Assembly (NCBI RefSeq): GCF_001046875.1
Contig: NZ_HF571038.1
Coordinates: forward strand, 137,766-201,765
Length of the DNA stretch: 64,000 nt
Source of the DNA: Nostocoides jenkinsii Ben 74
Lineage (GTDB): Bacteria; Actinomycetota; Actinomycetes; Actinomycetales; Dermatophilaceae
Direction of reading: 5' to 3'
The notes beneath the pieces were generated by a model. It had not been told where the DNA came from and did no database searches. It saw only the letters and a program-made list of their open reading frames with translations. This document shows positions 27,524-30,791 of this stretch, piece after piece; positions within the stretch are counted from its first letter, which is position 1, and each line of letters opens with the position of its first letter. The position numbers and the translations under genes were made by a program.

Positions 27524-28489
27524 TCAGTCCTCGGGAGGGGTCTCGGTCCCAGCGCGCTCGTCCCGCTCGGCCCAATCCAGCAACGGCGCGATGTCGTATG
27601 CCGCGTCGTCGATCCCGGCATGCAGGTCACCGAGGCGGGCGAAGCGCTCCGGCATGGTGGCGATCGTGAAGTCGTCGGGTTCGACGTTCGGGATCTCATC
27701 CCAAGTGATGGGCGCCGAGACGGTCCCCTTGGCGTTGCCGCGCACCGAGTATGCCGCGGCGATCGTGTGGTCGCGGGCGTTCTGGTTGTAGTCGACGAAG
27801 ACCGCGGCGGGGTCGCGATCTTTGCGCCACCAGGTCGTTGTCACATCGTCCGGGAGGCGCCGCTCGACCTCCCGGGCGAACGCCAGCGCGGCTCGACGCA
27901 CATCGCCGAAGCTGTGGTCGGGGGCGATCCGCACATAGATATGCAACCCACGTCCGCCCGAGGTCTTCGGGAAGCCGACGGCACCGAGTTCGGCGAGGAG
28001 GTCGCGGCATACGGTTGCGGCGGTGCGGACCCGGGAGAAGGGGGCCTCCGGCATCGGGTCGAGGTCGATTCGCCACTCATCCGGCTTCTCGGTGTCGGCC
28101 CGCCGGCTGTTCCAGGGGTGGAACTCGACGGTGGACATCTGGACCGCCCAGAGCACATCGGCGGCCTTGGTGACACAAAGTTCGTCTGCGTGCAGGCCGT
28201 AGCGGGGGAAGTGCAGCCGCACCGTCTCCACCCAAGCAGGGGCGCCGCGGGGGAGTCGCTTCTGGTGAACTTTGGGCCCGGCCACGCCATCAGGGAAGCG
28301 GTGCAGCATGCACGGCCGGTCCCGCAGTGCGTTGACGATGCCCGGCGCCACGGACAAGTAGTAGTTGGCCAGGTCGAGCTTCGTCTCGCCGCGCTCGGAA
28401 AAATAGACCCGGTCCGGGCTGGACAACTTCACGTCGAAGCCCTCGACGTCGAGCACTACCGGTTCGCCGAACTCACCCTTCTTGGCCAC
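27524..28489 (-). CDS. LigD-type DNA polymerase/primase (PrimPol) domain protein
   Basis: 321 residues, a stand-alone polymerase domain of the LigD family. RIDLDPMPEAPF carries the metal-binding Asp pair, SGGRGLHIYV the conserved Ser-Gly-Gly-Arg and His, and SSPDRVYFSERGETKLD the opening motif. Length and layout follow M. tuberculosis Rv3730c, which sits next to ligC there. Such enzymes fill gaps and add bases or ribonucleotides during end joining. GTG 28489 follows TACGGT by 6 bases, a leaderless pattern. No Ku gene is visible in the window, so its partner is unknown. Confidence 0.92.
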   Translation of the reverse strand: MAKKGEFGEPVVLDVEGFDVKLSSPDRVYFSERGETKLDLANYYLSVAPGIVNALRDRPCMLHRFPDGVAGPKVHQKRLPRGAPAWVETVRLHFPRYGLHADELCVTKAADVLWAVQMSTVEFHPWNSRRADTEKPDEWRIDLDPMPEAPFSRVRTAATVCRDLLAELGAVGFPKTSGGRGLHIYVRIAPDHSFGDVRRAALAFAREVERRLPDDVTTTWWRKDRDPAAVFVDYNQNARDHTIAAAYSVRGNAKGTVSAPITWDEIPNVEPDDFTIATMPERFARLGDLHAGIDDAAYDIAPLLDWAERDERAGTETPPED

Positions 28490-28527: not shown

Positions 28528-29538
28528 TCATCCGGCCATCCCCCACACTTCGGGGGCCGAGCGACCGTCAAGCCACGAACCCATCCCCGCGGCCCCGGGG
28601 GTGATGTCGTATGCCGCGAGCTCCCGCCCCAGCCGGCTGGCATCGATCGCGCTGGTCCAGGTCCAGCGCACGACGTCTGCTTGCTTCCGGAGTCGGTCCT
28701 CGCGCCGCTTCTCCTCCCACAGGGTGCGCTCGATATCGGTCTGCGAGGTGAGGCCCCCGAGCCGATACTTCACCCTGCCGTCGAACTCGCCCACCAGCGG
28801 GCGCTTCCCGCGTCGCCGCCACAAGAAGTCCACGTAGCCGATCAGGCCGTCAGCGTCGTTGAAGGGCACCTGCAGCTCGGGCTTGGGGAGGTTCAGGCGG
28901 AACATTCGCAGTCGGGAGACTGATTCACCAGGCGAGTGCGCCAGGCCGTTGGCCAACTTCGCGGTCAGCAGCGCAGGGCGCCTGCCAGGTTGGCCTGCGG
29001 CTAGTCCGGCCGCTTCGGCGGTGAGGGCGTCCGGATCGCAAAGTTGGTGCCGAAGCACGTGATCGGCGGCCACAAGTGCGTTCTCCAGAGAGTCGAATCG
29101 CGCAAGATCGATCACGGTCCGGGCCGGCGGCGTGCAGCGGATGTCGTGAATGAGCCAACAGGTCGGACAGGCCCCAGAGCGTCGGCTGGCTGGACCAGAG
29201 CCGCCGCGCTGTCGCCGCATGTCCGTCTGGCTTGGGTCAGCGAGGAGTCTGACCGCGTTTGGCCAAGGACCGATGCGAGGCAGCGTCTGCAGCGCCGCTG
29301 CGGAGGGGCCGCAAAAGACGGGTTCGACGGCAGATGTGATGGCCCGGTTGGCCGCGTGGACGAGCGCCGCATGGCGTTGCAGCGGCGTGAGGCTGTCGAA
29401 GTCCACTTGGCGGATCCAGAAGCCACGGCGCACACCGACCCATCCGGCGCGAGCTGGCTCGATCCCCATACGGCGAAGGTCCGAGCCCCGCACGAGTTGG
29501 CTCGGGTCGAAGGCAGCAGGCGGGGGCGGTCCAAACAT
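28528..29538 (-). CDS. AbiEi-like antitoxin/regulator with nuclease-like C-terminal domain
   Basis: 336 residues. The N-terminal third has an AbiEi-type winged-helix pattern: LVRGSDLRRMGIEPARAGWV, then an R-R-G-F-W turn. The middle contains P-A-R-T-V-I-D-L-A-R-F-D, typical of these proteins. The C-terminal part (D-F-L-W-R-R-R-G-K-R-P-L-V-G-E-F-D-G-R-V-K-Y) resembles the DUF559/Vsr endonuclease fold. AbiEi proteins repress their own operon through inverted repeats and neutralise the nucleotidyltransferase AbiEii; no such toxin gene adjoins this one. ATG 29538 is used. An eight-part mirrored repeat lies 112 bases upstream and could be its operator. Confidence 0.75.
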   Translation of the reverse strand: MFGPPPPAAFDPSQLVRGSDLRRMGIEPARAGWVGVRRGFWIRQVDFDSLTPLQRHAALVHAANRAITSAVEPVFCGPSAAALQTLPRIGPWPNAVRLLADPSQTDMRRQRGGSGPASRRSGACPTCWLIHDIRCTPPARTVIDLARFDSLENALVAADHVLRHQLCDPDALTAEAAGLAAGQPGRRPALLTAKLANGLAHSPGESVSRLRMFRLNLPKPELQVPFNDADGLIGYVDFLWRRRGKRPLVGEFDGRVKYRLGGLTSQTDIERTLWEEKRREDRLRKQADVVRWTWTSAIDASRLGRELAAYDITPGAAGMGSWLDGRSAPEVWGMAG

Positions 29539-29649
29539 GCGTTGAGAGTGTCCCGGCGGCCGTGGGTCCGGCAATCTTCGCGGTGCCGGCCTGTGGACGA
29601 CGCCTCGACCTGGGGTGCGCAGCCTGGGGATAACTCGAAGCCGAAGGTG

Positions 29650-29789
29650 GTGAGGCTTTCTCGCCCCCGTGAGGCTTTCTTAGCGACCAGTGAGGGGTTC
29701 GTGACGGCGTGAGGGGCTATAACGCCTCACGCGGGCACGAAAGCCTCACCACCTGCGACAAAAGCCTCACGCGGTCGCAAAGGCCTCAC
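29650..29789. repeat. Eight-part mirror-symmetric GTGAGG array
   Basis: Four forward half-sites start at 29650, 29669, 29690 and 29709 (GTGAGGCTTTC twice, then GTGAGGGGTTC and GTGAGGGGC). Four inverted half-sites end at 29730, 29749, 29770 and 29789 (GCCTCAC, GAAAGCCTCAC and variants). Every forward start plus its partner end sums to 59439, so the symmetry is exact with steps of 19, 21 and 19. The spacers between half-sites are not well paired. The array lies between the prs stop and the AbiEi-like start. Confidence 0.9.
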
Positions 29790-29813: not shown

Positions 29814-30791
29814 TCAGGCGAAGAGGCTCGGCTGGGGCGGGGCGTGCGTGGGGTCAACCCCGTCGAAGAGGGTCGAGATCGACGTGCCGGAGTGGATCCG
29901 CGAGATGGCCTCGGCAAACAGCTTCGCGACCGAGCGCACGTGCAGCTGCGGCCAGTCGCTCGGCGGCGCCACAGTGTCGGTGGTGACGACCTGGCTGATC
30001 ATCGGGTGCGTCGACAGTCGCTCGACTGCGGCCCCGCGGAATAGCCCGTGCGTGCACGCCACGGCCGCCTCGGTGCACCCGAAGTCCTTGAGCCGATCGA
30101 GCAACTCCACGATCGAGCCGCCGGTGGCGATCTCGTCGTCGAGCACGATCGCCCGCTTGCCGGCCACATCGCCCACGATCGCGTCGATCACCACCACGTC
30201 GTCGGATTTGCGCTGCTTGGACCCGGCCGCCACCGGCAGACCCAGCAACCGCGCGAACTGTGTCGCGGTCTTGGCGTTGCCCAAGTCCGGCGAGACGACG
30301 ACGTGATCGCTCAGATCCCAGCCGCGGAAGTGCTCTGCCAGGATCCCGATCGCCGTCAGATGGTCCACCGGCATCGAGAAGAATCCGTGCACCTGCGGCG
30401 CGTGCAGCGTCATCGTCAGGATGCGGTCGACCCCGGAGGCCGCCAACAGATCGGCCACTAGCTTGCCGCCGACCGAGATGCGGGGCGCGTCCTTCTTGTC
30501 CGAACGGGCATACGCGAAGTGGGGGATCACCGCCGTCACCTGCGCCGCGCTGGCGCCCTTGGCCGCGTCGATCATCATCAGGAGTTCCATCAGGGATTCC
30601 TGCGTCGGCGGAGCGACCGGCTGGATGATGTAGACATCGCGCTGCCGGCAGTTGGCCAGCAACTGCGACTGCAGACAGTCGTTGCTGAACCGCGTGGTGT
30701 GGCTGGGGGAGAGCGGCACCGCGAGTTCCTCGCAGATGCGCTGAGCCAAGCTGGGGTGATTGCTGCCGGAGAAGACGACGATCTCCCGCAT
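29814..30791 (-). CDS. prs: Ribose-phosphate pyrophosphokinase (PRPP synthetase)
   Basis: 325 residues. It makes PRPP from ribose 5-phosphate and ATP for purine, pyrimidine, His and Trp synthesis. VVFSGSNHPSLAQRICEEL, the conserved Y-A-R-S-D-K-K-D-A-P-R catalytic flexible loop region, LTMTLHAPQVHGFFSMPVDH and the PRPP-binding VLDDEIATGGSIVE are all visible. The PRPP loop differs from the more common D-D-M-I-D-T-G-G-T. ATG 30791 has AGGGAG upstream, and TAGGCT at 30837-30832 gives a leader of about 35 bases. It is set apart from other nucleotide genes. Confidence 0.9.
   Translation of the reverse strand: MREIVVFSGSNHPSLAQRICEELAVPLSPSHTTRFSNDCLQSQLLANCRQRDVYIIQPVAPPTQESLMELLMMIDAAKGASAAQVTAVIPHFAYARSDKKDAPRISVGGKLVADLLAASGVDRILTMTLHAPQVHGFFSMPVDHLTAIGILAEHFRGWDLSDHVVVSPDLGNAKTATQFARLLGLPVAAGSKQRKSDDVVVIDAIVGDVAGKRAIVLDDEIATGGSIVELLDRLKDFGCTEAAVACTHGLFRGAAVERLSTHPMISQVVTTDTVAPPSDWPQLHVRSVAKLFAEAISRIHSGTSISTLFDGVDPTHAPPQPSLFA

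Follow-up and report, generated by a model that had tools for sequence, protein, structure and literature searches.

Between prs and an AbiEi-like gene of Nostocoides jenkinsii Ben 74, the hexamer GTGAGG is repeated several times, and is then repeated as often in the opposite orientation. What is such a structure for? It might be an operator, placed in front of the gene whose product binds it. It might act as RNA. Or it might be one copy of something that is spread over the chromosome. The question is addressed here computationally, starting from a stretch of 64,000 nucleotides that is called the window; coordinates given without a locus name refer to it.

The array and its setting

On the forward strand, GTGAGG starts at 29650, 29669, 29690 and 29709, and CCTCAC at 29725, 29744, 29765 and 29784, with an inner gap of 10 nt between the facing half-sites. 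An earlier, sequence-only reading had described eight half-sites in exact mirror symmetry, and every position was reproduced exactly (Table 1). The array is real, and lies beyond chance. The window holds six pairs of the form GTGAGG-N10-16-GTGAGG, where shuffles predict 0.08. A scan for mirror chains of any hexamer found this array alone in the 64 kb, and found no such chain in block-shuffled controls.

Table 1. Features of the window around the mirror-symmetric array.
Feature	Coordinates	Strand	Remarks
LigD primase-polymerase (Prim-Pol) gene	27524-28489		Stand-alone; next gene downstream of the AbiEi-like gene
AbiEi-like solo gene	28528-29538	-	336 aa from ATG 29538; TTG 29574 also possible
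Leader between array and gene	29539-29649	-	Two inverted CTGTGGATAAC-like motif copies
Mirror-symmetric array	29650-29789	.	4 GTGAGG + 4 CCTCAC half-sites; steps 19/21/19 per side; centre 29719.5
Palindromic core, GTGAGGGGCTATAACGCCTCAC	29709-29730	.	22 bp, TATA-centred; family consensus GTGAGG-CGYTATARCG-CCTCAC
prs, ribose-phosphate pyrophosphokinase	29814-30791	-	Pfam PF13793, PF14572; stop codon 24 nt from the array

The array lies 112 bp ahead of the ATG of the AbiEi-like gene, and only on the 5' side of that gene. On the forward strand, the two motif copies of the leader read CCTGTGGACGAC (near 29589) and CCTGGGGATAAC (near 29624). As CTGTGGA, the motif is found upstream of 46 of 79 related genes, between array and gene, and downstream of none of them. 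The motif of the window (29589-29638) is oriented opposite to that in the relatives. Read on the other strand, the CTGTGGATAAC-like motif is similar to a DnaA box, TTATCCACA.

A family of arrays in one genome

Pattern searches of the 3.81-Mb genome (G000) found the same architecture at 12 places, the window array and 11 others. Those 11 rule out the array as an operator unique to the AbiEi-like gene. The core is present in all 12 places, in one of them cut off by an assembly gap. Every one of the 22 readable arms steps outward from it by 19 first, and 19 of the 22 then step by 21. Complete arms carry three to six half-sites, and the two arms of an array are often unequal. Complete arrays span about 120-220 bp, in units of 19-21 bp.

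These arrays are intergenic, with a stop codon no more than 50 nt away in 10 of the 12 places. Their neighbors include prs, rpoC, rho, ligA, miaB, tatB and mrp. They are often found between convergent genes; one sits between divergent genes (a miaB-type gene and LamB/YcsF). In three genes, a GTGAGG half-site itself supplies the TGA stop codon (L025 4216-4221, L029 4203-4208 and L031 3953-3958).

The 12 places probably correspond to about 11 real loci, since an assembly gap seems to have divided one of them. Two of the places stop at gaps at the core, one after tatB (L032 near 4150; G000:C1 3631 kb) and the other after mrp (L030 near 4045; G000:C1 3304 kb). In Tsukamurella, tatB and mrp flank a single convergent interval. 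Thus, the two probably belong to a single tatB-mrp array that mis-scaffolding has broken at the palindrome.

The same genome contains, at L033 4007-4043 (G000:C1 25106-25142), a neighboring pair of palindromes that differ in type from the arrays, GTGAGGTTGCCTCAC and GTGAGGTTACCTCAC, with 22 bp between them.

What is conserved within the arrays

The sequence-only reading had also held that the half-sites are conserved while the spacers differ. This is true for all copies of the array. Half-site columns hold about 2 bits, and spacer columns mostly less than 1 bit, apart from a conserved CTTT run directly after the half-site. From this it had been argued that selection acts on the sites rather than on a hairpin, and the pairing of the facing spacers agrees. 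Only the innermost ones are more complementary within arrays than between them (0.76 versus 0.60); the second pair gives 0.50 versus 0.55, and the third 0.54 versus 0.49. Because the half-sites are conserved, the spacers are not, and only the innermost spacers pair, a pure hairpin is unlikely; the outer spacers are where the plain hairpin reading fails.

The arrays do, of course, have strong predicted RNA folding (z of -5 to -21). This is to be expected where half-sites face each other and the core is palindromic. Inside the window array, two terminator-like matches were found (0.2 expected). Both are weak, with 6-7 pairs, and no long T-run is present. Among known RNA families, the only candidate was a chance match to mir-2331 (E 0.65).

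The neighboring protein

The AbiEi-like gene is predicted to encode a winged-helix N-terminus joined to a PD-(D/E)XK nuclease of the DUF559 type. The candidate catalytic residues are E205, D237, E251, D253 and K257 (alignment A1). Across 79 related proteins the aligned positions are near-invariant (E, D, E and D in 79/79, K in 78/79), in the PD-(D/E)XK arrangement. The window protein itself matches neither AbiEi_4 nor DUF559 in Pfam. Among its relatives, one scores above the AbiEi_4 cut-off (28.4 versus 25) and another just below it (23.7), and one passes the cut-off for DUF559. The AlphaFold2 model is of high confidence, with a pLDDT of 88.4 and a pTM of 0.86. Its Foldseek matches are weak, all with E of at least 0.13; they include R2 endonuclease, McrC, TnsA, XisH and I-Bth0305I, and several of the top ones are nucleases of the PD-(D/E)XK class. 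No Y1 transposase domain was matched in the window protein or in nine relatives.

The protein family is common. Among 120 genomes of the taxonomic family, 113 have it (E <= 1e-25), in one to ten copies. No relative of the window protein was found in the phage collection. Neither Pfam nor NCBIfam gives the genes an informative name; in public annotation, one appears as an AbiEi-family antitoxin-domain protein and others as hypothetical. No AbiEii (DUF1814) toxin gene follows the window gene, where the LigD Prim-Pol gene stands instead.

Related genes carry their own repeats

In the set of 79 related genes, direct repeats of an exact 8-mer at a lag of 19 occur in 20 upstream flanks, in 25 downstream flanks and within none of the genes; control tiles have them in 6/182 and 2/153. 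Direct repeats in these flanks peak at 19 bp. A 12-mer common to both flanks is found for 63 of the 79 genes; flanks paired wrongly share one in 8 of 79 cases, and those of control genes in 5 of 67 (Fisher p about 1e-19, for loci that are not fully independent, some being from the same genera or genomes). The shared copies are mostly direct or palindromic.

These repeats also recur elsewhere in their genomes, at least 22 times in G026, 16 in G126 and 13 in G028, and the solo copies that were examined lie mostly after stop codons. Two further gene-sized intervals between repeats in G126 were considered as AbiEi-like copies; they contain other genes. Conversely, three loci that had been chosen for their repeats, rather than for the gene, proved to have an AbiEi-like gene nearby (L182, L174 and L115).

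Judged by shared 12-mers, the sequence of the repeat tracks the identity of the protein. Across genera, repeat 12-mers are common to 8 of 176 pairs whose proteins are at least 50% identical, to 2 of 915 at 40-50% and to none of 1829 below that, with pairs that are not fully independent, since certain genera or genomes contribute more than one locus. A check made after the pattern had been formulated came from another order. A plasmid record of Tsukamurella tyrosinosolvens (NZ_LR134451.1) has an AbiEi-domain gene (WP_074851054.1) between tatB and mrp, bracketed by two near-identical arrays of CGCTGCCG half-sites with a 19-bp step.

A second array family

Other genera have further mirror arrays, with different half-sites. 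Richest in arrays is G133, a genome of the taxonomic-family sample, where at least 22 exact copies of a core, CTCACCGTCGACGGTGAG, unrelated to the GTGAGG core, are followed outward by GGTGAG at an exact 19-bp register. The half-site polarity is opposite to that in G000. Counting exact or one-mismatch copies, GGTGAG fades from the first unit to the seventh: 44/44, 40/44, 40/42, 26/41, 14/41, 7/41 and 2/41. Here, even the innermost spacers are unpaired (0.39 within versus 0.41 between arrays). The genome has a single match to the AbiEi-like family (E 1.8e-26), and none of the arrays examined has such a gene beside it, though no genome is richer in arrays.

Some of these mirror arrays stand as tandem doubles or triples within one intergenic region (L149, L150, L151, L160 and L161). 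Several contigs of this genome terminate in or near an array.

Presence and absence among relatives

The sequence-only reading had looked to close relatives for conservation, and here the outcome is divided. Three congeners lack the GTGAGG array; what related genes elsewhere carry is repeats of their own. The core is missing from the congeners and the other relatives tested, bar one isolated one-mismatch site, and the rest of the taxonomic-family sample has no dense GTGAGG arrays. In the GTDB r220 collection, the core appears only in three unrelated contigs, probably by chance. Many GTGAGG repeats of relatives are ordinary minisatellites or coding sequence. The period-19 repeat that follows prs in G002 is likewise a minisatellite, single and short, beside a scaffold gap.

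Individual sites can be compared. At the window locus, congeners G001 and G003 have prs and then the ligD-type gene, and neither array nor AbiEi-like gene. At the site downstream of rho, this array is present in G000; G002 has 46 bp there, with no array, while G001 and G003 have another palindrome and other repeats, respectively. The element at this 3' end differs between L291 (G001) and L294 (G003), each palindromic or repeated, as would be seen if elements landed at gene ends again and again. The flanks of the ligA array are more than 1 kb apart in G001 and do not map to one place in either G002 or G003. Elsewhere, G082 has a stretch of about 165 bp with a repeat copy that is missing in its sibling G081, between flanks that are 93% identical. 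Such cases mean gain or loss, and could be losses.

What may read the arrays

The reading preferred here, at a probability of roughly 60%, is that the neighboring AbiEi-like/DUF559 nuclease has a dispersed repeat family of its own, which it reads and of which the array is one copy, in an arrangement like that of REPs and RAYTs. The winged helix would recognize the half-site, with one protomer for each 19 bp or so. Assembly would start at the palindromic core and extend outward on both arms. A 19-bp period shared by unrelated sequences, the outward fading of half-sites and their covariation with the protein all fit an AbiEi-like protein that binds cooperatively, with nucleation at the core. The nuclease domain might then nick or cut at or near the core. 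Over time, repair or replication would have copied arrays, and sometimes the unit of array and gene, into other intergenic sites, with copying that favors places just after gene ends, where arrays survive. That the nuclease residues are intact and the arrays dispersed suggests that this spreading is driven by cuts at the core, a role like that ascribed to RAYTs in the case of REPs (PMC3733652). Each nuclease lineage would have its own half-site. The arrays may, in addition, end or insulate transcription. What the sequences themselves show is the architecture and conservation of the arrays, their dispersion, repeats around related genes that covary with the protein, and presence or absence at orthologous sites; binding, cutting, copying and effects on transcription are inferred from these.

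The sequence-only reading had pointed to AbiEi proteins, which bind inverted repeats in front of their genes. As to the binder, this has fared well; the frequency of repeats shared by both flanks, and the way the repeat follows protein identity, make the AbiEi-like protein the likely reader, and it is probably what binds the array. As to the operator, it is insufficient. To suppose that the protein binds the array solely to control its own gene, the other copies being incidental, has some attraction: the array lies close ahead of the ATG, the conserved CTGTGGA motif is found upstream only, and AbiEi and Rv2827c do bind inverted repeats in their own promoters (PMC7319586). It is nevertheless an unlikely account. 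The other arrays of this genome adjoin housekeeping genes rather than an AbiEi-like gene, the repeats of related genes are as frequent downstream as upstream, and the AbiEii toxin partner is lacking. The array is probably more than an operator, and autoregulation is at most part of its role.

Two further alternatives concern what the arrays are kept for. They might be transcribed 3'-end structures, bidirectional terminators or stabilizers of mRNA, maintained for their folding, the link with the nuclease being historical. They follow stop codons, in many cases lie where convergent genes meet, and are predicted to fold strongly, all of which would suit this. Spacers past the innermost do not pair, however, arms in G000 often differ in half-site number or steps, terminator-like matches are only weak, and folding does not require a 19-bp period, let alone one common to unrelated families; a role of this kind is improbable. 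Or the arrays might be the sites of some other DNA-binding protein, a chromosome organizer or a transcription roadblock, where nuclease genes merely land. A strict 19-bp register that fades outward would suit cooperative assembly by any protein, and the G133 arrays examined stand without an AbiEi-like gene. Such a protein would not, however, lead one to expect that the repeat covaries with the AbiEi-like sequence, or that this gene family is so frequently bracketed, and its involvement is doubtful to a like degree.

A broader proposition, tentative and at somewhat less than even odds, is that Actinomycetes have a separate class of genome-resident elements, convergent with REP/RAYT but unrelated to it. 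In these, mirror arrays of 19-bp period would be kept up and spread by their own winged-helix PD-(D/E)XK nuclease, whose specificity would shift between lineages. Poorly named nuclease genes, if linked to dispersed lineage-specific repeats, gain a role that can be tested, and the link would explain a class of actinomycete intergenic repeats, as well as some assembly breaks. The many natural pairs of protein and repeat would, in turn, let the site choice of winged helices be decoded.

Comparison with known systems

Mycobacteriophage stoperators are single sites in phage genomes, not chromosomal mirror arrays. They share with the arrays the use of asymmetric sites spread over a genome. There, one repressor stops transcription at many sites (PMC9283540).

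The AbiE type IV toxin-antitoxin systems, including Rv2827c of M. tuberculosis, also have inverted repeats ahead of the gene and, to judge from AbiEi_4 matches in some relatives, probably a related N-terminal winged helix. Here, however, no DUF1814 toxin partner is present, the C-terminus is a predicted nuclease rather than an antitoxin domain, and the repeats are dispersed and stand on both sides of the relatives' genes. DUF559/Vsr-like and REase_MTES_1575 nucleases have the same catalytic E/D/E-D-G/K pattern; unlike the proteins here, they have no repeat partner described in the open-access literature that was searched. That literature, in which few subscription journals were covered, gives no account of DUF559 or AbiEi with dispersed palindromes.

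The closest likeness is to REP/REPIN elements and their RAYT (TnpA-REP) proteins. There too, palindromic intergenic repeats are species-specific, dispersed and near gene 3' ends, and a dedicated gene is flanked by them, as are 63 of the 79 relatives here and, on its 5' side, the window gene. REPs can also supply stop codons (PMC3733652), as GTGAGG does with its TGA. REPs are, however, palindromes of 20-40 bp tagged GTAG or CGTC, whereas the arrays are mirror half-sites of 19-bp period with no GTAG tag. The RAYT is an HUH (Y1) tyrosine transposase, while the protein linked to the arrays is a predicted winged helix with a PD-(D/E)XK nuclease. Because the protein is not such a transposase, the arrays work like a REP/RAYT system but are not a member of it. 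If the reading is true, a nuclease can take the place of a transposase as the partner of REP-like repeats.
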